Shown here: positions 2,562 to 14,559 of the stretch, piece after piece | Layout: each line of letters starts with the position of its first letter | Numbering within the stretch: the first letter of the stretch is position 1 | NCBI RefSeq assembly: GCF_008801925.2 | Contig: NZ_CP062803.1 | Location: 1,550,001 to 1,614,000 of the forward strand | Source of the DNA: Cupriavidus basilensis | GTDB taxonomy: Bacteria > Pseudomonadota > Gammaproteobacteria > Burkholderiales > Burkholderiaceae | Reading direction: 5' to 3' | Length of the DNA: 64,000 bases | Notes under the pieces: generated by a model | The model's database searches: none | Told to the model about the DNA's origin: nothing | Seen by the model: only the letters and a program-made list of their open reading frames with translations | Position numbers and translations under genes: made by a program

Positions 2562-3194
2562 TCAACTGCTCTTGGACAGGGCCAGGCGAAGCAGGTCGGC
2601 CACGGTGTTGACGTTGAGCTTTTCCATGATGTTGGCGCGGTGCGCCTCCACGGTCTTGATGGAAATGCCCAGGTCGTCGGCAATCTGCTTGTTCAGCCGG
2701 CCGGCTACGATGCGCTCCAGCACCTGCTGCTCGCGCGTGGTGAGCTTGCCCAGCAGGTCCTTGGCGGCGCGCTGCTCGCGGGCGGCGGAATGGTCGGTGC
2801 GGGCCTTTTGCAGCATGCGCTCCACCAGCGATCGCAGTTCGGACTCATCGAACGGCTTTTCGATGAAGTCGATTGCGCCCTTCTTCATGGTGGAGACTGC
2901 CATCGGCACATCGCCGTGGCCGGTGATGAAGACGATCGGGATATTGATGTTTTCCGCGATCATGCGTTCCTGCAGCTCGGGCCCGCTCATGCCCGGCATC
3001 CGCACGTCCAGGATCAGGCAGGAGACCTGGCCCGAGTCGTAGGCGGAAAGGAACTGTTCGGCGCTGGTAAAGCTGCGAACCTGGTAGCCATTGCCCTCCA
3101 GCAGCCAGGTCAGCGAGTCGCGCATGGCTTCATCGTCGTCGACGATGAAGACGGTCTCGCCGCGGTGGGAGGTGGGGTTTGGCGTTACAGTCAT
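2562..3194 (-). CDS. FixJ/NarL-type response regulator
   Basis: Two-component transcriptional regulator of 210 residues. The receiver domain (about residues 14-125) shows the acidic triad VDDDEAM, the phosphoacceptor in LILDVRMPG (Asp63), the TGHGDVPMAV segment and a conserved Lys in IEKPF. A LuxR-type helix-turn-helix occupies about residues 140-205 (LTTREQQVLERIVAGRLNKQIADDLGISIKTVEAHR). The start at 3192-3194 is set by AGGAGA six bases upstream; a longer frame would begin at a TTG with no ribosome site. It lies 134 bases downstream of the PAS histidine kinase on the same strand, which is almost certainly its partner. Targets are unknown. Confidence 0.92.
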   Translation of the reverse strand: MTVTPNPTSHRGETVFIVDDDEAMRDSLTWLLEGNGYQVRSFTSAEQFLSAYDSGQVSCLILDVRMPGMSGPELQERMIAENINIPIVFITGHGDVPMAVSTMKKGAIDFIEKPFDESELRSLVERMLQKARTDHSAAREQRAAKDLLGKLTTREQQVLERIVAGRLNKQIADDLGISIKTVEAHRANIMEKLNVNTVADLLRLALSKSS

Positions 3195-3328
3195 GAAGTC
3201 TCCTGGGACATCAAAGTCATTTGCCGCCAAGTGTAACCGGGCCGGGCGGCAAGCGACAGGGGCGGCCCTGGCGCGCCTGATCCTGTCTTGTCAATGCCGC
3301 GCGGCCCGCCCGGCGTCTTGTTGGCCGA

Positions 3329-5917
3329 TTATTGGTCGATCAGCGCCGGCTGCAGCGGCAGCATGATCTTGAACGTGCAGCCGATGCCGTCGGCATTGTT
3401 CTCCACCCACAGGCGCCCCTGGTGGGACTCGATGATGGAGCGGCAGATATTCAGCCCCATGCCCATGCCGTCGGACTTGGTGCTGAAGAACGGTTCAAAC
3501 AGGCGTTCCTTCGTGGCCTCGTCAACGCCAGGACCCTGGTCGATCACGTCGATGCGCATATTCGGGCCGATCTCGCCCGGCTCGATGCGCGCGTGCAGGC
3601 GCACCACGCCGGTGGCGCGCAGCGCGGGCAGCCCGGCCATGGCCTCGACGGCATTCTTGAGCAGGTTGACCAGCACCTGCTCGATCAGCACCGGATCGAC
3701 GAACAGCACCACTGGCGGCGGCGGCAGCCGGGTCAGGATGGTGACGCGGCGGCGGGTGGCCTCCAGGTCGGCCAGCCCGACCGCGTCGGCCACGATGTCG
3801 TGCAGCGCGGCTTCGCGGCGCTGGGGCTGGCTGCGTTTCACGAAGCCCCGGATGCGGCTGATGATGGTGCCGGCGCGCACCGCCTGCGCCGAGGTCTTTT
3901 CCAGGATCGGGATCAGGTCCTCGGCGGTGCTGCGCCCGGAGCGCAGCCGGGCCACCGCGCCCATGCAGTAGTTGTTGATGGCCGCCAGCGGCTGGTTCAG
4001 CTCATGCGCGAGCGACGACGCCATCTCGCCCATGGTGGTCAGGCGGCTGGTGAACTGCAGCCGTTCCTCATGCTGGCGCGCCATTTCCTCGGCGGCCTTG
4101 CGCACCGTGATATCGGTGGCGATCTGCATCTGCGCCAGGTGGCCGTCGACCCACTGAATGTAGCGGCGGCGCACTTCGAACCATTTCTGCATGTCGGGCA
4201 CGAAGACTTCCCGCGCGTCCGAGGAGTAGGGCATCAGCTCCGAGGCAGGCAGGCCGGCGTAGGCGTCGACGAAGTCGGTGGCGTCGCTGGAGACCTGCTC
4301 CTTGTCGACCTCGCCGCCGGCCAGCTTCAGGTGGCCCTCGGCTTCCCAGCCGAACAACTGACGGTAGTAGCGGTTGGCGAACAGCAATTCGGGCTTGTCG
4401 GTGGCCAGCACGGACACCGCGGCGTCCAGGCTTTCCAGCACCGTGGTGAAGCGGTCGTGGGCGGCGGCGAGTTCCTCGCGGGCGCGCTTGGGCTCGGTGA
4501 TGTCCGTCATCGAGGCCATCCAGCCGGTGTGCCTGCCGCGGCTGTCCACCAGCGGCGAGACATACATGCGGGCGTAGAAGCTGCTGCCGTCGCGCCGCAT
4601 GGCGCGCATCTCATAGCCGCTGGCCGGGGACTTGCCCTGTAGCGTCAGGTCGATCTGCTTTTGCATCTCCTGATGGTCGTTGGGCGGCCAGTAGGGGAAG
4701 GGCGGAACGCGGCCGACCAGGTCGCTGTCCTGCCAGCCGGTCATGCGGCAGAAGGCGGGATTGACGTAGGTGATGCGGCCGTTCAGGTCGAGCGCACGCA
4801 ACCCGATCAGCATCGAGTTTTCCATCGCGCGGCGAAATGACGTCTCGGCCAGCAGGGCGCGCTGCGCCTCGGAGCGCCGGCTGGTGTGGCGCCACATGCT
4901 CCACAGGCTCCACAAGAGGAAGCACGACAGCCCCACCACCAGCCACAGCAGCATGTTGTTGGGCAGGTTGGAGGCGGGCGGGTAGGCGTCGGCGCGCAGC
5001 GACAGCGAGTGCCCCGGCGGGTCCAGCAACACCTCGTAGGACAGCGCGTTGCCCGGCACCGGCCGCAACGAAGTGCTGGCGCGGATCTGGTTGTTCTTGT
5101 CGATCAGCGAGAAGCGGTAGCGCTCGGTCAGCTCCGGCGGCAGCAGGTGGGTCAGGATGCCGTTGATGGAGTAGAGCGCGCCCAGGGTGCCGAGGAACTC
5201 GTTGTCCCGCACGATCGGCACCTCCATCAGCATGAAGCTGTCGCCGCGGTCGTTGACCAGCGGGCGCGAGTACACCACGCGCTGGGTTTCGCGGGCGGAG
5301 TCGAAGGTATCGAGCACCTCGGGCTCCAGCGGCTGGTCCTGGGTTTCGCGCAGCCGGCTGGCGAATTCGGAGGTGGACGGCAGCGACCAGCGCCCGCGCC
5401 GGGTCGCGTCCAGCCAGTTGACGAAGACGATTTCCGGGTTCTCGCGCAGGATTTCCTGCGCGGCGGTGCGGTAGGCGCCCTGGTCCAGCTGGGCGGCGGC
5501 GATGTCGCGCGCCAGCGAGGCCAGCTGGTCCTGGTTGCTCAGCAGGGACAGGCGCACGCGCTGCTGGGCCCAGGCCGCGTCGCGATAAAGCGCGTCGCGT
5601 TGCTGCTGGCGCTCGGTTTCATGAAGCGACCACAGGATCACGCCCATTGCCACCGTGAACAGCACGATTGCCACCAGCGGGATGAACATGAACCAGCTGG
5701 TTGCCACCAGGTTGCGCCAGCGCAGCCACCACAATCCGCGCGGCGGCCCGTTGACGGCGGCGGGCTCGTCCACGTGGCCAAGCGTATCGAGGGGCGTCAG
5801 CGGGTTGGGCGGGGCGACCAGCGTAGGGTCGCTGCCGCTCGCCTTGGCGGAGCCGGAAGCGGAGGGAGGGACGACTGCGGCGCGGAGGTGGGAAAAGAAA
5901 TCTTTGAGGGACGGCAT
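3329..5917 (-). CDS. Membrane-bound PAS-domain sensor histidine kinase (FixL-like core)
   Basis: Sensor kinase of 862 residues. There is one membrane segment near residues 70-97 (SWFMFIPLVAIVLFTVAMGVILWSL), a predicted periplasmic domain of about 220 residues and a second membrane segment near 322-345. Two PAS domains follow (about 355-480 and 485-615). The phosphoacceptor helix reads AHELNQPLAAINNY (His638), which is the FixL/HWE-like H-box variant. The C-terminal ATPase domain has N (VNLLKNAVEAM), G1 (DVIDQGPGVD) and G2 (GMGMGLNICRSIIESH) boxes. ATG at 5915-5917 was chosen because upstream residues are low-complexity and non-conserved. It is divergent from aceE across a 430-base region, so it may sense or control central carbon flux; this is inferred from position only. 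Confidence 0.88.
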   Translation of the reverse strand: MPSLKDFFSHLRAAVVPPSASGSAKASGSDPTLVAPPNPLTPLDTLGHVDEPAAVNGPPRGLWWLRWRNLVATSWFMFIPLVAIVLFTVAMGVILWSLHETERQQQRDALYRDAAWAQQRVRLSLLSNQDQLASLARDIAAAQLDQGAYRTAAQEILRENPEIVFVNWLDATRRGRWSLPSTSEFASRLRETQDQPLEPEVLDTFDSARETQRVVYSRPLVNDRGDSFMLMEVPIVRDNEFLGTLGALYSINGILTHLLPPELTERYRFSLIDKNNQIRASTSLRPVPGNALSYEVLLDPPGHSLSLRADAYPPASNLPNNMLLWLVVGLSCFLLWSLWSMWRHTSRRSEAQRALLAETSFRRAMENSMLIGLRALDLNGRITYVNPAFCRMTGWQDSDLVGRVPPFPYWPPNDHQEMQKQIDLTLQGKSPASGYEMRAMRRDGSSFYARMYVSPLVDSRGRHTGWMASMTDITEPKRAREELAAAHDRFTTVLESLDAAVSVLATDKPELLFANRYYRQLFGWEAEGHLKLAGGEVDKEQVSSDATDFVDAYAGLPASELMPYSSDAREVFVPDMQKWFEVRRRYIQWVDGHLAQMQIATDITVRKAAEEMARQHEERLQFTSRLTTMGEMASSLAHELNQPLAAINNYCMGAVARLRSGRSTAEDLIPILEKTSAQAVRAGTIISRIRGFVKRSQPQRREAALHDIVADAVGLADLEATRRRVTILTRLPPPPVVLFVDPVLIEQVLVNLLKNAVEAMAGLPALRATGVVRLHARIEPGEIGPNMRIDVIDQGPGVDEATKERLFEPFFSTKSDGMGMGLNICRSIIESHQGRLWVENNADGIGCTFKIMLPLQPALIDQ

Positions 5918-6113
5918 GGTGGGATTGACGACTGACCGAGCAGTGTAGCGGGATTGCGGCGCCCCGTCGCTTGGGGTAAGCGCCAATGCGGCGCTGCGGC
6001 ATTCCTGCCGAAGGCGCGGCGGGTGAATGGCGTTTGGCGGCAAGGGCTGGCGCAGTGTTGTGGTGCGCTGCCGCAATATTTCATATTGTAAGAAACCATA
6101 TCGCAATTTGAAA

Positions 6114-6134
6114 ATTGGGCTTGTCTTGCCCAAT
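6114..6134. promoter_or_regulatory. Inverted repeat overlapping the aceE -35 box; candidate operator
   Basis: ATTGGGC (6114-6120) and GCCCAAT (6128-6134) are perfect arms around a 7-base spacer that contains the -35 hexamer. The outer half-sites ATTGG/CCAAT recall GntR-family PdhR sites (ATTGGT-N3-ACCAAT), but the spacing here is 6 bases longer, so PdhR binding is not claimed. Confidence 0.5.
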
Positions 6135-6149
6135 GTGCTTCCATAGAAT
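6121..6149 (+). promoter_or_regulatory. Sigma-70-type promoter of the aceE operon
   Basis: TTGTCT (6121-6126), a 17-base spacer and TAGAAT (6144-6149). Transcription would start near 6156, giving a leader of about 190 bases before the aceE ATG. Confidence 0.65.
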
Positions 6150-6186
6150 CGGTCCGACCGAAAAGTGCGGACGGCAGTGCTGCGTC

Positions 6187-6238
6187 CGGTCCTGCCAGCC
6201 TCGCTGGCAAGCCCGGGCGAAGCGCTAGCGAAGGACCG
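6187..6238 (+). other. Structured 5' leader of aceE mRNA
   Basis: An inner hairpin, TGCCAGC-CTC-GCTGGCA (6193-6209), lies inside an outer pairing CGGTCCT (6187-6193) with AGGACCG (6232-6238). This is just downstream of the predicted start site and about 110 bases before the ribosome site. No T-run follows, so it does not look like a simple attenuator. Confidence 0.4.
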
Positions 6239-6347
6239 TGCGAAGACACTCGCGGCCGGCGCGCCGTACCGTAGTCACACCGTCAGGCCGGGGCTCCCAC
6301 CACAAGAATCAGGGGGCACCGAGGCAGGAATTCACCAGGAGACAGTC

Positions 6348-9035
6348 ATGTCAGCTGTACCAGAGCAGATCCTCGGCGCAAGCAGCGCCAACGACGCCGA
6401 TCCCCAGGAAACCCACGAGTGGCTTGATGCCCTGCAGGGCGTGATCGCCGCCGAAGGCACCGACAGGGCCGCCTTCCTGATCGACAAGCAGATCGAATAC
6501 GCACGCGTGAACGGCGTCACCCAGCCGTTCCACGCTGAAACGCAGTACATCAACACCATCCCGGTGGAGCAGCAGGCCCGCATTCCCGGCGACCAGGACA
6601 TCGAGCACCGCATCCGCTCGTACACCCGCTGGAACGCCATGGCGATGGTGCTGCGCGCCAACAAGCACACCAACGTTGGCGGCCATATTTCCTCGTTTGC
6701 CTCGGCGGCCACGCTGTATGACGTCGGCTACAACCACTTCTGGCACGCCCCGTCCGAGAAACACGGCGGCGACCTGGTGTTCGTGCAGGGCCACTCGGCC
6801 CCGGGCGTGTATTCGCGCGCCTTCCTGCTCGGCCGCCTGAGCAAGGAACAGCTCGACAGCTTCCGCCAGGAAGTCGACGGCAAGGGCATCTCGTCCTATC
6901 CGCACCCGTGGCTGATGCCGGACTTCTGGCAGTTCCCGACGGTGTCGATGGGCCTGGGCCCGATCATGGCGATCTACCAGGCCCGCTTCATGAAGTACCT
7001 GCATAGCCGCGGCCTGGTGCAGACCGAAGGCCGCAAGGTCTGGGCCTTCCTGGGCGACGGCGAGACCGACGAGCCGGAATCGCTGGGCGCGATCGGCATG
7101 GCCGGGCGCGAGAAGCTGGACAACCTGGTGTTCGTGATCAACTGCAACCTGCAGCGCCTGGATGGCCCGGTGCGCGGCAACGGCAAGATCATCCAGGAAC
7201 TCGAATCCGAGTTCCGCGGCGCCGGCTGGAACGTGATCAAGGTGGTGTGGGGCAGCCGCTGGGACCAGCTGCTGGCACGCGACCACAAGGGCCTGCTGAT
7301 GAAGCGCATGATGGATTGCGTGGACGGCGAGTACCAGACCTTCAAGGCCAAGGATGGCGCCTACGTGCGCGAGCATTTCTTCAATACCCCTGAGCTCAAG
7401 GCGATGGTGGCCGACTGGTCCGACGAGGACATCTGGCGCCTGAACCGCGGCGGCCATGACCCGCACAAGATCTATGCCGCCTACAGCGCCGCCAACGAGC
7501 ATAAGGGTCAGCCCACGCTGATCCTGGCCAAGACCATCAAGGGCTATGGCATGGGCGACGCCGGCCAGGCCATGAACATCAGCCACCAGCAAAAGAAGAT
7601 GCCGGTGGACGCGATCCGCCGCTTCCGCGACCAGTTCAACATCCCGGTCTCCGACGACAAGATCGAGGAAGTGCCGTACATCACCTTCGAGGAAGGCTCG
7701 AAGGAACTGGAATACATGCGCGCCCGCCGCATGGAGCTGGGCGGCTACCTGCCGGCCCGCCGCCAGAAGGCAGAAGCCCTGAAGGTGCCTGAGCTGTCCG
7801 CCTTCGACGCGCTGCTCAAGGCCACCAGCGAAGGCCGTGAAGTGTCCACCACCATGGCCTTCGTACGGATCCTGAACACGCTGCTCAAGGACAAGCAGAT
7901 CGGCAAGCACGTGGTGCCCATCGTGCCCGACGAGTCGCGCACCTTCGGCATGGAAGGCCTGTTCCGCCAGATCGGCATCTGGAACCAGCAAGGCCAGAAG
8001 TACGTGCCGGAAGACCACGACCAGCTGATGTTCTACAAGGAATCGCAGACTGGCCAGGTGCTGCAGGAAGGCATCAATGAAGCCGGCGCCATGTGCGACT
8101 GGATCGCCGCCGCCACGTCGTACTCGACGCACGGCATCCAGATGATCCCGTTCTACATCTATTACTCGATGTTCGGCATCCAGCGTATCGGCGACCTGTG
8201 CTGGGCGGCCGCCGACATGCGCTCGCGCGGCTTCCTGCTGGGCGGCACCTCGGGCCGCACCACGCTCAACGGCGAAGGCCTGCAGCACGAAGACGGCCAC
8301 TCGCATGTGTTCCATGCCGTGATCCCGAACTGCATCTCGTATGACCCGACCTTCCAGTACGAGCTGGCGGTGATCATGCAGGACGGCCTGCGCCGCATGT
8401 ACGCCGAGCAGGAAGACGTCTACTACTACCTGACGGTGATGAACGAGAACTACGAGCATCCGGAAATGCCGGCTGGCGTAGAGGGCGACATCGTCAAGGG
8501 CATGTACCAGTTCAGGAAGGGCGTGGAAAACAGCAATGCGCCGCGCGTGCAACTGCTGGGTTCGGGCACGATCTTCCGCGAGGTGATCGCCGCTGCCGAC
8601 CTGCTCAAGAAGGACTGGGGCGTGGAGTCGGACCTGTGGGGCTGCCCGAGCTTTACCGAACTGGCCCGCGAAGGCCACGACGTGGAGCGTTGGAACCTGC
8701 TGCACCCGACCGAGCCGCAACGCGAGTCGCACGTGACCAAGAGCCTCAAGTCGGTGCGCGGCCCGGTGATCGCCTCGACCGACTATGTGCGCGCCTTTGT
8801 CGACCAGATCCGTCCCTTCGTGCCGCGCCGTTTCGTGGTGCTGGGCACCGATGGTTTTGGCCGCTCGGACACCCGCGAGAAGCTGCGTCACTTCTTTGAG
8901 GTGGATCGTCACTGGGTGACGCTGGCAGCACTGAAGGCGCTGGCAGACGAAGGTGCCATCGGTCGCGACAAGGTGGCCGAAGCCATCAAGAAGTACAACC
9001 TCGACCCCAACAAGCCGAACCCGATGTCGGTCTAA
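6348..9035 (+). CDS. aceE: Pyruvate dehydrogenase E1 component, homodimeric type
   Basis: E1 decarboxylates pyruvate with thiamine diphosphate and transfers the acetyl group to lipoyl-E2 in the cytoplasmic PDH complex. The 895-residue length fits the gammaproteobacterial/Cupriavidus single-chain E1. The thiamine diphosphate motif is visible as GDGETDEP followed by NCNLQRLDGPVRGN; other family segments include HVGGHISSF, ISYDPTFQYELAVIMQDG and FVPRRFVVLGTDGFGRSDTREKLRHFFEVD. ATG at 6348 is chosen from AGGAGA at 6337-6342; the open frame continues upstream only into the structured leader. It is the first gene of aceE-aceF-(Ntn hydrolase)-lpd and is called pdhA in C. necator. Confidence 0.97.
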   Translation: MSAVPEQILGASSANDADPQETHEWLDALQGVIAAEGTDRAAFLIDKQIEYARVNGVTQPFHAETQYINTIPVEQQARIPGDQDIEHRIRSYTRWNAMAMVLRANKHTNVGGHISSFASAATLYDVGYNHFWHAPSEKHGGDLVFVQGHSAPGVYSRAFLLGRLSKEQLDSFRQEVDGKGISSYPHPWLMPDFWQFPTVSMGLGPIMAIYQARFMKYLHSRGLVQTEGRKVWAFLGDGETDEPESLGAIGMAGREKLDNLVFVINCNLQRLDGPVRGNGKIIQELESEFRGAGWNVIKVVWGSRWDQLLARDHKGLLMKRMMDCVDGEYQTFKAKDGAYVREHFFNTPELKAMVADWSDEDIWRLNRGGHDPHKIYAAYSAANEHKGQPTLILAKTIKGYGMGDAGQAMNISHQQKKMPVDAIRRFRDQFNIPVSDDKIEEVPYITFEEGSKELEYMRARRMELGGYLPARRQKAEALKVPELSAFDALLKATSEGREVSTTMAFVRILNTLLKDKQIGKHVVPIVPDESRTFGMEGLFRQIGIWNQQGQKYVPEDHDQLMFYKESQTGQVLQEGINEAGAMCDWIAAATSYSTHGIQMIPFYIYYSMFGIQRIGDLCWAAADMRSRGFLLGGTSGRTTLNGEGLQHEDGHSHVFHAVIPNCISYDPTFQYELAVIMQDGLRRMYAEQEDVYYYLTVMNENYEHPEMPAGVEGDIVKGMYQFRKGVENSNAPRVQLLGSGTIFREVIAAADLLKKDWGVESDLWGCPSFTELAREGHDVERWNLLHPTEPQRESHVTKSLKSVRGPVIASTDYVRAFVDQIRPFVPRRFVVLGTDGFGRSDTREKLRHFFEVDRHWVTLAALKALADEGAIGRDKVAEAIKKYNLDPNKPNPMSV

Positions 9036-9200
9036 ACAGGCCGACTGCACGAACCCCCGCAGGAGCGGCAATGCCGCGTGCGCGGGCGCCGGGCTGATTC
9101 CCGGCGCCTTGCGGCGCGGCGGCGTGACAGATCACGGCGGTGAGGGTAACCTCACACGCTCGTGTTTGTCGTGCGCGCCGGCCTGCCCAGGAGACACTGA

Positions 9201-10871
9201 ATGAGTCAAGCGATTGAAATCAAGGTGCCGGATATCGGCGATTACGACGCCGTTCCCGTCATCGAAGTGCACGTGAAACCGGGCGACACCATCAACGCGG
9301 AAGACGCGCTGGTGACGCTGGAATCGGACAAGGCCACGATGGACGTGCCTTCGCCCCAGGGCGGCACCGTCAAGGAAGTCAGGATCAAGATTGGCGACAA
9401 CGTCGCCGAAGGCACCGTGCTGGTGATGCTGGAGCCCGCCGGCCAGGCTGCCTCCGCGCCCGCCCCGGCCGCAGCCGCACCGGCTGCCGCGCCGGCCCCC
9501 GCCCCGACGCCGGCTCCGGCCCCGGCGGCAGCCAGCGCTCCCGCGCCGGCCGCTGCAGCCGGCCCGGTCGAGGTCAAGGTGCCGGACATCGGTGACTACG
9601 ACTCGGTCCCGGTGATCGAAGTCCACGTCAAGCCGGGCGACACCATCAACGCCGAAGACGCGCTCGTGACGCTGGAGTCCGACAAGGCCACCATGGACGT
9701 GCCGTCGCCGGCCGCCGGCGTGGTCAAGGAAGTCCGGATCAAGGTCGGTGACAACGTCGCCGAAGGCACGCTGATCCTGATTCTCGAAGGCGCCGCCGGT
9801 GCTCCGGCCAGCGCGCCTGCCGCTGCCGCACCGGCTGCTGCCCCGGCTGCCGCTGCCGCTCCGGCTCCCGCACCTGTAGCCAGCGCCCCGGCTCCGGTCC
9901 CCGCAGCCGCGCCCGCCGCGGCTGCTCCGGTAGCCGGCGTGACCGGCACCGCTGCCCATGCCAGCCCCTCCGTGCGCAAGTTCGCGCGCGAACTGGGTGT
10001 GGATGTGTCGCGCGTGCCGGGCACCGGCCCCAAGGGACGGATCACCCAGGACGACGTGCAGGCCTACGTCAAGGGCGTGATGAGCGGTCATGCCGCAGCG
10101 CCGGCAAAGGCTGCCGCTGCCCCGGCTGGTGGTGGCGAACTGAACCTGCTGCCGTGGCCGAAGGTGGACTTCACCCGTTTCGGCGAGATCGAAAGCAAGC
10201 CACTGTCGCGCATCAAGAAGCTCTCGGGCGCGAACCTGCATCGCAACTGGGTGATGATTCCCCACGTCACCAATCACGACGAGGCCGACATCACCGAGCT
10301 GGAAGCCTTCCGCGTGCAGCTCAACAAGGAATACGAGAAGCAAGGCGTCAAGGTCACCATGCTGGCCTTCATGATCAAGGCCGCCGTCGCCGCGCTGAAG
10401 AAATTCCCGAATTTCAACGCTTCGCTCGATGGCGAGAACCTGGTGCTGAAGCAGTATTTCAACATTGGTTTCGCCGCTGACACGCCGAACGGCCTGGTTG
10501 TGCCGGTGATCAAGAACGCCGACAAGAAGGGCGTGATCGAGATCGGCCAGGAAATGAACGAACTGGCCAAGCTGGCGCGCGACGGCAAGCTCAAGCCGGA
10601 CCAGATGCAAGGCGGCTGCTTCTCGATCTCCTCGCTGGGCGGCATCGGCGGCACGTATTTCACGCCGATCATCAACGCGCCGGAAGTGGCCATCATGGGC
10701 GTGTGCAAGTCGTACCAGAAGCCGGTGTGGGATGGTAAGCAGTTCGTGCCACGGCTGACGCTGCCGCTGTCGCTGTCGTGGGATCACCGCGTCATCGACG
10801 GTGCGGAAGCGGCTCGCTTCAACACCTATTTCGGTCAGTTGCTGGCCGATTTCCGCCGCATCCTGCTGTAA
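9201..10871 (+). CDS. aceF: Pyruvate dehydrogenase E2, dihydrolipoyllysine acetyltransferase
   Basis: E2 accepts acetyl groups on lipoyl-lysine and passes them to CoA, and forms the core of the PDH complex. The 556 residues comprise two almost identical lipoyl domains (about 3-76 and 121-194, lipoylated Lys44 and Lys162 in ESDKATM), Ala/Pro-rich swinging linkers, a peripheral subunit-binding domain near residues 250-290 (ASPSVRKFARELGVDVSRVPGTG) and a catalytic domain ending with SWDHRVIDGAEAARF (His529, Asp533). AGGAGA precedes ATG 9201. It sits 165 bases after aceE; no promoter or terminator is obvious in that gap. It is called pdhB in C. necator. Confidence 0.97.
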   Translation: MSQAIEIKVPDIGDYDAVPVIEVHVKPGDTINAEDALVTLESDKATMDVPSPQGGTVKEVRIKIGDNVAEGTVLVMLEPAGQAASAPAPAAAAPAAAPAPAPTPAPAPAAASAPAPAAAAGPVEVKVPDIGDYDSVPVIEVHVKPGDTINAEDALVTLESDKATMDVPSPAAGVVKEVRIKVGDNVAEGTLILILEGAAGAPASAPAAAAPAAAPAAAAAPAPAPVASAPAPVPAAAPAAAAPVAGVTGTAAHASPSVRKFARELGVDVSRVPGTGPKGRITQDDVQAYVKGVMSGHAAAPAKAAAAPAGGGELNLLPWPKVDFTRFGEIESKPLSRIKKLSGANLHRNWVMIPHVTNHDEADITELEAFRVQLNKEYEKQGVKVTMLAFMIKAAVAALKKFPNFNASLDGENLVLKQYFNIGFAADTPNGLVVPVIKNADKKGVIEIGQEMNELAKLARDGKLKPDQMQGGCFSISSLGGIGGTYFTPIINAPEVAIMGVCKSYQKPVWDGKQFVPRLTLPLSLSWDHRVIDGAEAARFNTYFGQLLADFRRILL

Positions 10872-10959
10872 GGCGGGCAGGGCGCGCCGGGCCTCGCGGC
10901 CATGCGCGCCCTTACCTGCAACGTCTGCAACCTGCAACCTGCAAACAGGAAGCGAGCCC

Positions 10960-11577
10960 ATGACTACCTGCGTTGTCGTCAAGAAGGCCGGCGAAGTGGC
11001 GATTGCCGCCGACGCGCTGGTGACGTTTGGCGACACCCGGCTCACGCGCGCCTACGAGCGCAACCAGAAGGTGTTCCCGGTGGGTGACAGCTTCGTGGCG
11101 CTTGCCGGCACCACCGCGCACTTCCCGGTCATGCGCAGCCTGTTGGCGGGGCTGGGCGAGGATTGCCGGCTGGGTTCGCGCGATGACGTCTTCCGGACCT
11201 TCCTCAAGGTGCATGAAAAACTCAAGAACGAGTATTTCATCAACACCAAGGAGGACGAGGACGATCCTTACGAGTCCTCGCAGATCGTCTGCCTGATTGC
11301 CAATCCGGCCGGCATTTTCGGCGTGTATTCGTACCGCGAAGTCTTCTCGTTCGATCGCTTCTGGGGCATTGGCTCGGGGCGCAACTACGCGTTGGGCGCC
11401 ATGCACGCGGTCTACGACCAGCCGGGCCTGGCCGCCCGCGAGATTGCGCGCATCGGGGTGGATGCAGGGGTGGAGTTCGACAAAAGTTCGGCAGGCCCGG
11501 TCGAGGTGCAGGTGGTGCAACTGGCTGACATGGCTGGCGACGGAGCAACCAATAACGATGGCGCGCCCCGCATCTGA
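10960..11577 (+). CDS. HslV-like (proteasome-fold) Ntn hydrolase inside the PDH operon
   Basis: A 205-residue protein that aligns by eye along its whole length with the HslV peptidase. The opening [26 protein letters not shown] matches HslV [25 protein letters not shown], so Thr2 would become the catalytic N-terminal Thr after Met removal. Asp18 and Lys37 fall at the HslV Asp17 and Lys33 positions (the latter after a 3-residue insertion). [15 protein letters not shown] and [17 protein letters not shown] match the C-terminal half of HslV. No HslU-type ATPase is nearby. It lies between aceF (88 bases, AGGA ribosome site) and lpd (28 bases), so it is probably co-transcribed with them. The catalytic residues look intact; the role is unknown. 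It is not HslV itself, which is normally next to hslU. Confidence 0.85.
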
Positions 11578-11605
11578 AGCGGAGCGCGTTCTTGAGGAGC
11601 AAAAC

Positions 11606-13390
11606 ATGAGTGTGATCGAAGTCCAGGTGCCGGATATCGGCGATTTCGACGCGGTGGAAGTCATCGAGGTGCTGGTCAAGGCTGGCGATACGGTCGAGCA
11701 GGAGCAATCGCTGATCGTGCTCGAGTCCGACAAGGCCAGCATGGATGTGCCGTCGTCCGCCGCCGGCAAGGTGGTGGAGGTGCGCATCAAGGTGGGCGAC
11801 AAGGTTGCCAAGGGTGCCGTCATCTGCACGCTGGAGAGCGAAGCCGCAGCCAAGCCGGCCGCCGCGCCGGTCCCTGCGCCCGCGCCTGCGCAGGTATCGG
11901 CGCCTGTCGCGGCCGCGGCTCCGGCTCCCGTGGCCGCCGCGCATGCAGGCAGCGCGGATATTACCTGCGACATGCTGGTGCTCGGCGCCGGCCCTGGTGG
12001 CTACTCGGCCGCCTTCCGCAGCGCCGATCTCGGCATGAACACCGTGCTGGTCGAACGCTACAGCACGCTCGGCGGCGTCTGCCTGAACGTGGGCTGCATC
12101 CCCTCCAAGGCGCTGCTGCACAACGCCGCCGTGATCGACGAAGCCAAGGCCCTGGCGGCCCACGGCATCCTGTTCGGGGAGGCCAAGATCGACCTCGACG
12201 GGCTGCGCCACTACAAGGAAACCGTGGTCGGCAAGCTGACCGGCGGCCTGGCCGGCATGGCCAAGGCGCGCAAGGTACAGGTCGTGCGCGGTATCGGCAC
12301 CTTCCTCGATCCGCATCACCTCGAGGTGCAGGAAACCGAAGGTGACGCCAAGGCGACGACAGGCAAGAAGACGGTGATCCGCTTCGAAAAAGCCGTCATC
12401 GCCGCCGGCAGCCAGGCGGTCAAGTTGCCTTTCATCCCCGAGGACCCGCGCATCGTCGACTCCACCGGTGCGCTGGAACTGCCGGAAGTGCCCAACAAGA
12501 TGCTGGTCATTGGCGGCGGCATCATCGGGCTGGAAATGGCCACCGTGTACAGCACGCTGGGCGCCAGCATCGACGTGGTGGAAATGCTTGATGGCCTGAT
12601 GCAGGGTGCCGACCGCGACCTGGTCAAGGTCTGGGACAAGATGAACAAGAAGCGCTTCGACAAGGTCATGCTCAAGACCAAGACGGTCGGCGTGGAAGCG
12701 AAGCCGGACGGCATCTACGTCAAGTTCGAAGGCGAGCAGGCGCCGGCCGAGCCGCAACGCTACGACCTGGTGCTGGTGTCGGTGGGCCGCGTGCCCAACG
12801 GCAAGCGCATCGGCGCGGAGAAGGCGGGGGTGGCGGTCACGGATCGCGGCTTTATCGACGTCGACAAGCAGATGCGCACCAATGTGCCGCACATCTTCGC
12901 TATCGGCGACATCGTCGGCCAGCCCATGCTGGCCCACAAGGCGGTGCACGAAGCGCACGTGGCAGCGGAAGCCGCGCACGGCGAGAAGGCTTACTTTGAC
13001 GTCAAGCAGATCCCGTCAGTGGCCTACACCGATCCGGAGGTGGCCTGGGCGGGCGTGACCGAAGACCAGTGCAAGGCGCAGGGGATCAAGTACGGCAAGA
13101 GCGTGTTCCCGTGGGCAGCATCGGGCCGTGCCATTGCCAATGGCCGCGACGAAGGCTTTACCAAGCTGATCTTCGACGAGGAAACCCACCGGATCATCGG
13201 TGGCGGCATCGTCGGCATGCATGCAGGCGACCTGATCAGCGAAGTCTGCCTGGCAATCGAGATGGGTGCCGATGCAGTGGATATCGGCAAGACCATCCAC
13301 CCGCACCCGACGCTGGGCGAATCCATCGGCATGGCAGCCGAGATCTACGAAGGTGTCTGCACCGACGTCCCGCCGCCGCGCAAGCGCTAA
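11606..13390 (+). CDS. lpdA: Dihydrolipoamide dehydrogenase (E3) with N-terminal lipoyl domain
   Basis: E3 re-oxidises dihydrolipoamide using FAD and NAD+. The 594-residue protein carries its own lipoyl domain (about 3-76, Lys43 in ESDKASM), an Ala/Pro linker (about 85-118) and then the flavoprotein. Visible motifs are the FAD-binding [12 protein letters not shown], the redox disulfide [13 protein letters not shown] (Cys159/Cys164), the NAD-binding [17 protein letters not shown], the second FAD motif IFAIGDI and the C-terminal catalytic HPHPTLGES (His567). GAGGAGC precedes ATG 11606. It is the last gene before the terminator at 13418-13443. Its length and domain order match the C. necator pdhL product. 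Confidence 0.97.
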
Positions 13391-13417
13391 GCACCGGACG
13401 TTAGCGACACGAGAGTG

Positions 13418-13443
13418 AGGCCCGCCGTATGGCGGGCCTTTTT
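13418..13443 (+). terminator. Rho-independent terminator of the PDH operon
   Basis: AGGCCCGCC-GTAT-GGCGGGCCT, a perfect 9-bp stem with a 4-base loop followed by a T-run. Confidence 0.9.
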
Positions 13444-13574
13444 ACGTCTTGATTCGCAATTAACCGCCATACTTTTTGCCACATACGCTTGCGGCTGCGC
13501 CGGCCAAAGCTTGCCCGCAGCGGGGAGGGCGTGTGTCCTTGTGTCCGAGTACCTGCTTGCCAATGTGTCGCAGG

Positions 13575-13602
13575 CAAAAAAAATCCCGGCGCATGGCCGG
13601 GA
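13575..13602 (-). terminator. Rho-independent terminator of phaP
   Basis: On the minus strand TCCCGGC-CATGC-GCCGGGA is followed by eight T residues. It lies about 170 bases past the phaP stop. Confidence 0.85.
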
Positions 13603-13772
13603 ATGAATCGATATTGGAATACATGGAAACCAGATACCGAGGAGACACCGTAGGAGGGCAGGGCGGCTTGGGTAGCCTTCCGTGCTGCCTTCGTTCGCAA
13701 AATGCGCTGGCCAGGCCAGGCGCGCTTTGCCAACGAACCGGCCGAAGCCGGTCCGTTTCCTGCCGTCGCGGA

Positions 13773-14351
13773 TCAGGCGGCGGTGGTGGCCTTCTTGGTC
13801 GCGGTGCGAGCCGTGGCGCTGGCTTGCTGTGCGGCCTTGGTGGCGGCGCTGGCGGCTGCCTGGAAGTTGGTCTCAGCGATTTCAACAGCTTGCTTGGTGG
13901 CCTTCTGGACCGACTCGTAAGCGTTGTTGGCGGCGCTGATCGCGGACTTCACGATGGCAACGGTCGACTCGGAGCCGGCCGGGGCGTTCTTGGCGAGGTT
14001 CTCGACCAGGGTTTGCACCTTCTTCGAGTTCTCGGCCAGTTGGGCTTCGGCGACCTTGGTGAATTCAGCCTGGGTTTCCGAGGCGATTTCGTACACGTGG
14101 CGGCTGTACGCCAGGGCCTTTTCGGCAACCGGCTGGACCAGCGAGGTCTGGAGAGCCAGGAATTCCTGGGCGTCCTTGGCCGAGAGGGCCTTCTTGGCGT
14201 TGTCCACGTTTTCAGCGAACGTGGCCTTGACGACTTGCAGGTTCAGCTCGACCAGCTTTTCGATGCCTTCAAAAGCTTTGGTGGTCAGGCCAAACAGGGT
14301 TTCGAGGTTGGCTTTTTGCGCTGCGGCGACTTGTTCCGGGGTGAAGCTCAT
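13773..14351 (-). CDS. phaP: Phasin, polyhydroxyalkanoate granule coat protein
   Basis: Small, abundant, amphipathic helical protein that coats PHB granules and limits their coalescence. The 192 residues equal the C. necator PhaP1 length. The order [42 protein letters not shown] and the Ala/Thr/Lys-rich C-terminus match PhaP1 very closely from memory. ATG 14349-14351 is used because GGAGA lies eight bases upstream; the longer METS start lies upstream of that ribosome site. It is convergent with lpdA and lies about 46 kb from phaCAB. In C. necator the gene is repressed by PhaR; a TTGACA hexamer and a nearby dyad are described separately. Confidence 0.96.
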
Positions 14352-14379
14352 GCTGGTCTCCAATAATGAAGTTCAAGGT

Positions 14380-14408
14380 CATGCAAAATTAGGCCGCCCA
14401 GATGTCAA
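14380..14408 (-). promoter_or_regulatory. Candidate phaP promoter
   Basis: The minus strand has a perfect TTGACA (14403-14408). The -10 region 17 bases away is poor (TGCATG, 14380-14385), which would suit an overlapping PhaR or TGCA-type control site, but that is inference. Confidence 0.4.
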
Positions 14409-14559
14409 AGCCATGACGAAATAAGGGTTGAACCTGATTTCTCGTCAGCCAGCCCCAGGCGTAAGGGGGTTATCGGCGCGCTCCGCTTGCTCTGCAAAAT
14501 CGATGGTGCGCCGCAACAATTCCAATTGTAGGGAAAAGAAAATCGGTGTCAAGGGCTTC

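Follow-up and report, generated by a model that had tools for sequence, protein, structure and literature searches.

Betaproteobacteria proteasome homologs (BPH) are counted among the proteasome-like families (PMC8665760, available part) and have been described for Cupriavidus metallidurans and Thiobacillus denitrificans. According to the accessible excerpts of that description (PMC5777263), both proteins form a tetradecameric double ring of 14 subunits with an acidic pore, the active sites (Thr1) face the interior of the barrel, and the proteasome inhibitor epoxomicin binds to BPH. The family is held to descend from HslV, and the HslU-contact residues are not conserved in it. As far as the same excerpts go, no partner ATPase or unfoldase was found, neither standard peptides nor casein were cut, pull-downs contained no subunits of pyruvate dehydrogenase (PDH), and carbonylation patterns were unchanged with BPH. 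Three operon settings prevail among BPH genes, namely with argG, with three PDH genes (C. metallidurans) and with Hsp33 (PMC5777263, excerpts). Fuchs et al. proposed that BPH may act like an uncapped proteasome (PMC5777263; repeated in PMC8665760; excerpts of both). In the open-access papers searched, we found no further one on BPH function beyond these two. The location of BPH in a PDH operon is thus already known. The initial annotation of the locus considered here took this placement to be undescribed; since a PDH-operon BPH is in print for C. metallidurans (PMC5777263, excerpts), that claim fails.

The BPH gene of Cupriavidus basilensis considered here lies in a stretch of 64,000 nucleotides (contig NZ_CP062803.1, positions 1,550,001 to 1,614,000), referred to as the window. 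Its relevant features are:

6348..9035, forward strand: aceE, pyruvate dehydrogenase E1 (Pfam PDH_E1_M and others on 6285-9035; the start at 6348 is our choice within the longer reading frame 6165-9035)
9201..10871, forward strand: aceF, E2 with two lipoyl domains, E3-binding and catalytic domains (Pfam)
10960..11577, forward strand: BPH (Betaproteobacteria proteasome homolog), intact, 205 aa, as judged from sequence matches (5ovu, E-value 1.3e-106; 5ovs, 3.7e-40; PF00227 above cut-off)
10963..10965, forward strand: codon of the predicted catalytic Thr (Thr2; Thr1 once Met is removed), Thr in 96/96 PDH-linked copies; catalytic role according to PMC5777263 (excerpts)
11251..11265, forward strand: acidic run EDEDD of the pore loop, residues 98-102, from the sequence and as described for the C. 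metallidurans protein (PMC5777263, excerpts)
11606..13390, forward strand: lpd, E3 dihydrolipoamide dehydrogenase with an N-terminal lipoyl domain (Pfam)

The frame between aceF and lpd is intact, as initially annotated, with its ATG at 10960 and its stop at 11577. The aceF stop (10871) lies 88 nt ahead of it, and 28 nt separate its end from the ATG of lpd (11606), upstream of which the motif AGGAG is found. The genes sharing the operon with BPH encode E1, E2 and E3 (list of open reading frames and Pfam). A consensus scan of positions 6000-14500 gave no promoter or terminator site in the aceF-lpd interval, and aceF, BPH and lpd are likely co-transcribed. On the other side of the operon, a putative sensor kinase gene (3329-6133, reverse strand) adjoins aceE in divergent orientation, and a likely response regulator gene (2562-3230, reverse strand) lies behind it; the pair is possibly a regulator of the PDH operon. 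The putative sensor kinase is matched in 31 of those 59 loci of the named collection described below that are longer than 14 kb; the 28 loci that lack it are all found further down the list, past Cupriavidus and Ralstonia. The response regulator is matched in none of the 59 loci, which may only reflect the length of their flanks.

Judged by its sequence, the encoded protein belongs to BPH, a family of small bacterial proteins related to the proteasome. A phmmer search against solved structures places it closer to BPH than to any HslV or proteasome chain: the BPH structure 5ovu, which we read from the chain counts as the C. metallidurans protein, scores 357.9 bits (E-value 1.3e-106, residues 2-202) and a second BPH structure, 5ovs, scores 140.9 bits (E-value 3.7e-40), as compared to 26.4 bits for the best HslV chain. 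The Pfam model Proteasome (PF00227) scores 31.3 bits with a cut-off of 22.4, assigning the protein to the proteasome superfamily. The protein starts with Met-Thr-Thr, hence with Thr directly after Met and no propeptide, and carries the active-site residues Asp18, Lys37 and Ser139 (within Gly138-Ser139-Gly140; numbering Met = 1) as well as the long acidic pore loop of BPH with EDEDD at residues 98-102. The proteasome/HslV-like Ntn hydrolase fold put forward in the initial annotation is therefore borne out, with a strong fold match to the BPH structures and PF00227. Membership in HslV itself is rejected: the models TIGR03692 and NF003964 score 32.3 and 32 bits versus cut-offs of 157.75 and 137, and no hslU is found beside the gene. 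The reported absence of HslU holds for the operon but not for the genome, which encodes a true hslV (G000:C1:292279) and hslU (C1:292902; the pair spans 292279-294218). None of the 21 chains listed by phmmer bears the name Anbu, a family set apart here by chain names only. We note that many database entries name this soluble protein 'MFS transporter', an evident annotation error.

To place the locus among its relatives, we consider three sets of genomes. Among 399 genomes drawn from the order Burkholderiales, 151 contain a BPH match (154 matches; three genomes carry two), and the genomic context was read for 150 listed matches, leaving out four weak ones. BPH is located beside hsp33/hsp15 at 64 of these loci, beside argG/yajQ at 50, and between aceF and lpd at 16, with 17 loci elsewhere and 3 at contig edges; hence 114 of 150 loci belong to the former two settings. 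The neighbouring genes were recognized by the Pfam domains HSP33, S4 and DUF520; the small S4-domain gene we take to be hsp15, and the DUF520 gene presumably is yajQ. HslV scores above cut-off in 289 of the 399 genomes, including 15 of the 16 with a PDH-linked BPH (the exception is G323). Because of this co-occurrence, a replacement of HslV by BPH is rejected. The second set is a named collection, in which the order aceF-BPH-lpd is found at 80 of 80 loci (those scoring best against the window protein out of 134 matches, and hence biased to close kin). These loci include Cupriavidus, Ralstonia, Noviherbaspirillum, Collimonas and others (L052 and L056 share one strain name); the gap is 10-291 nt on the upstream side of BPH and -4 to 126 nt on the downstream side. 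Within the window's own family, BPH is present in 79 of 299 genomes and in 3 of 25 genera (80 matches listed), and aceF-BPH-lpd is the order at 30 of 30 loci read; the contexts of G158 (L004) and G652 (L267) were read in addition. At the latter locus BPH matches in two reading frames, which may indicate a broken gene or a sequence error. The expectation of a stable place between E2 and E3 in related genomes thus holds.

The PDH operon persists without BPH in the window's genus. BPH is present in 33 genomes of the genus, and 7 are listed without it, a number taken as complete on the ground that genomes lacking BPH are listed in order of kinship. A PDH aceF was located in 5 of these 7 (G457 and G501 gave none), and lpd directly follows aceF in 5 of the 5, with a gap of 24-64 nt by our count from the matches. 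In BPH-less genomes of other genera (G119, G255, G285 and G403), the gap between aceF and lpd is approximately 20 to 280 nt.

The history of the PDH-linked copies was followed in a tree of 164 rows that omits 64 of the 80 named loci as well as the three at contig edges. A single branch (support 100/93) separates all 32 PDH-linked rows from the rest, and one change of context is counted in 100% of 200 bootstrap trees. A branch with support 100/99 sets the 50 argG-linked rows apart in the same way. In the order sample, PDH-linked loci number 16 and are spread over 7 family codes, none of which shows another context there. These data fit one old change and vertical inheritance over a long time. 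Where the root of the tree lies is unsure, as the HslV outgroup sits on a very long branch, and the direction of the context change is therefore only inferred. Six of the 150 copies in the order sample start with Met-Ser and not with Met-Thr (L213, L229, L232, L234, L239 and L243). Four of them group on a branch of their own next to the argG-linked clade, and three of these four are second copies in their genomes (G118, G157 and G342). Ser1 is tied to BPH outside the Betaproteobacteria in the excerpts of PMC5777263.

The PDH-linked copies are under constraint. Thr2, Asp18, Lys37 and Ser139 are each found in 96 of 96 PDH-linked copies, so that the free N-terminal Thr suggested initially is retained throughout. 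For the window genes versus those of 10 Cupriavidus loci, which we picked from the 80 named ones, dN/dS is 0.06-0.16 for BPH, 0.08-0.16 for aceF and 0.04-0.13 for lpd. These ratios indicate purifying selection on PDH-linked BPH in Cupriavidus, although the gene can be lost. The catalytic set recurs in the hsp33-linked copies (63 of 64 with Ser139), whose pore loop is just as acidic. Acidic loops occur in each of the three contexts, those of argG-linked copies being less purely so (on average 3.6 basic residues per 21-residue stretch, as compared to 2.2 for PDH and 2.0 for hsp33). Among the 50 argG-linked copies, Ala replaces Ser139 in 8 and Ser replaces Thr2 in 2; the eight Ala copies (L205-L209, L211, L212 and L259) all stem from genomes of a single family code (f50). 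Three positions are typical of the PDH-linked clade, Glu33, Tyr125 and Lys175. None of them is catalytic, and a clade-specific change of the active site is rejected.

Taken together, BPH is probably a general ATP-independent housekeeping threonine protease that is carried in the PDH operon by descent and not by a need of PDH. The barrel, with Thr1 inside, would act without ATP on a narrow set of unfolded or damaged segments, as one among several overlapping housekeeping proteases. Its gene would have entered the PDH operon once, in the ancestor shared by a group of Burkholderiales families, and would then have been retained through vertical descent and steady co-expression. This reading is consistent with the family identity, with catalytic residues in 96 of 96 PDH-linked copies and an acidic loop in all three contexts, with HslV present as well in 15 of 16 genomes, and with the published barrel, epoxomicin binding, search without an ATPase partner found and pull-downs free of PDH subunits (PMC5777263, excerpts). 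It also agrees with a single context change (100/93; 200/200 bootstrap trees) amid three main neighbourhoods among 150 loci, and with the direct aceF-lpd joint in 5 of 5 located BPH-less relatives. Because much the same machine adjoins three gene sets, the operon is a weak guide to its substrate. Against a housekeeping protease stand the uncut standard peptides and casein and the unchanged carbonylation patterns (PMC5777263, excerpts), selection as strong as on aceF and lpd, and a PDH place kept in 7 family codes, steadier than co-expression alone might give; the unsure root leaves the direction of the change inferred. The related proposal of Fuchs et al., a stress-response protease that would handle oxidised proteins in the manner of an uncapped 20S proteasome, we regard as doubtful. 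All three neighbourhoods, PDH, argG and hsp33, are tied to oxidative or heat stress (PMC5777263 and PMC8665760, excerpts), and 64 of 150 loci adjoin hsp33 or the small S4-domain gene (Pfam HSP33, S4). However, the neighbourhoods follow descent and therefore amount to few independent events, and the carbonylation result speaks against this role as well.

A role specific to PDH was put forward in the initial annotation as assembly, turnover or repair. It is conceivable but unsupported: 114 of the 150 loci adjoin hsp33/hsp15 or argG/yajQ, PDH operons lacking BPH occur in close kin, and PDH subunits were missing from pull-downs (PMC5777263, excerpts). In the form of a quality control, in which the PDH-linked clade removes unassembled or oxidised E2/E3, for instance by cutting their disordered Ala/Pro-rich linkers, it is unlikely. 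Such cutting would need no unfoldase, and the single, stable relocation to the E2-E3 interval, the 80 of 80 near-kin loci in this order (best 80 of 134), the purifying selection and the clade-typical Glu33, Tyr125 and Lys175 are all compatible with it. Yet casein, a disordered protein, is left uncut and PDH subunits are absent from pull-downs (PMC5777263, excerpts), five BPH-less relatives keep the direct aceF-lpd joint, and neither the catalytic residues (Ser139 in 63 of 64) nor the acidic loop set the hsp33-linked form apart. It is more improbable still that the PDH-linked clade, unlike its hsp33- and argG-linked sisters, is a dedicated unfoldase-free protease of the PDH complex that cuts linkers of damaged or unassembled E2/E3. 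Ntn folds in general can be amidases, and the initial annotation also considered a non-peptide amidase acting on lipoyl or CoA intermediates. Apart from this general capacity, only the place beside lipoyl proteins favours such an activity, and we consider it most improbable: hsp33-linked copies and most argG-linked ones have the same active site, and the active sites lie inside the barrel and bind epoxomicin (PMC5777263, excerpts).

Structures of BPH have been solved. To these our survey adds that its place in the PDH operon would go back to a single old event, preserved by descent, and that the operon persists in near kin without the gene. These BPH-less kin provide a natural comparison for finding the function of BPH; a PDH function should not be read from operon placement alone.

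The closest described system is the BPH of C. metallidurans (5ovu, Rmet_1198), which shares with the window protein a near full-length sequence match, Thr1, the lack of a propeptide, an acidic pore loop of five Asp/Glu residues and a gene within the PDH operon. The C-terminal tail is slightly different; otherwise nothing of substance distinguishes the two. The BPH of T. denitrificans (5ovs, 5ovt) belongs to the same family (E-value 3.7e-40) and has the same catalytic set, but its gene is located with argG (PMC5777263, excerpts) and not in a PDH operon. HslV (ClpQ) has the fold and the catalytic logic in common with BPH, whereas the window protein reaches 32 bits against the HslV cut-off of 157.75 and its gene has no adjoining hslU.
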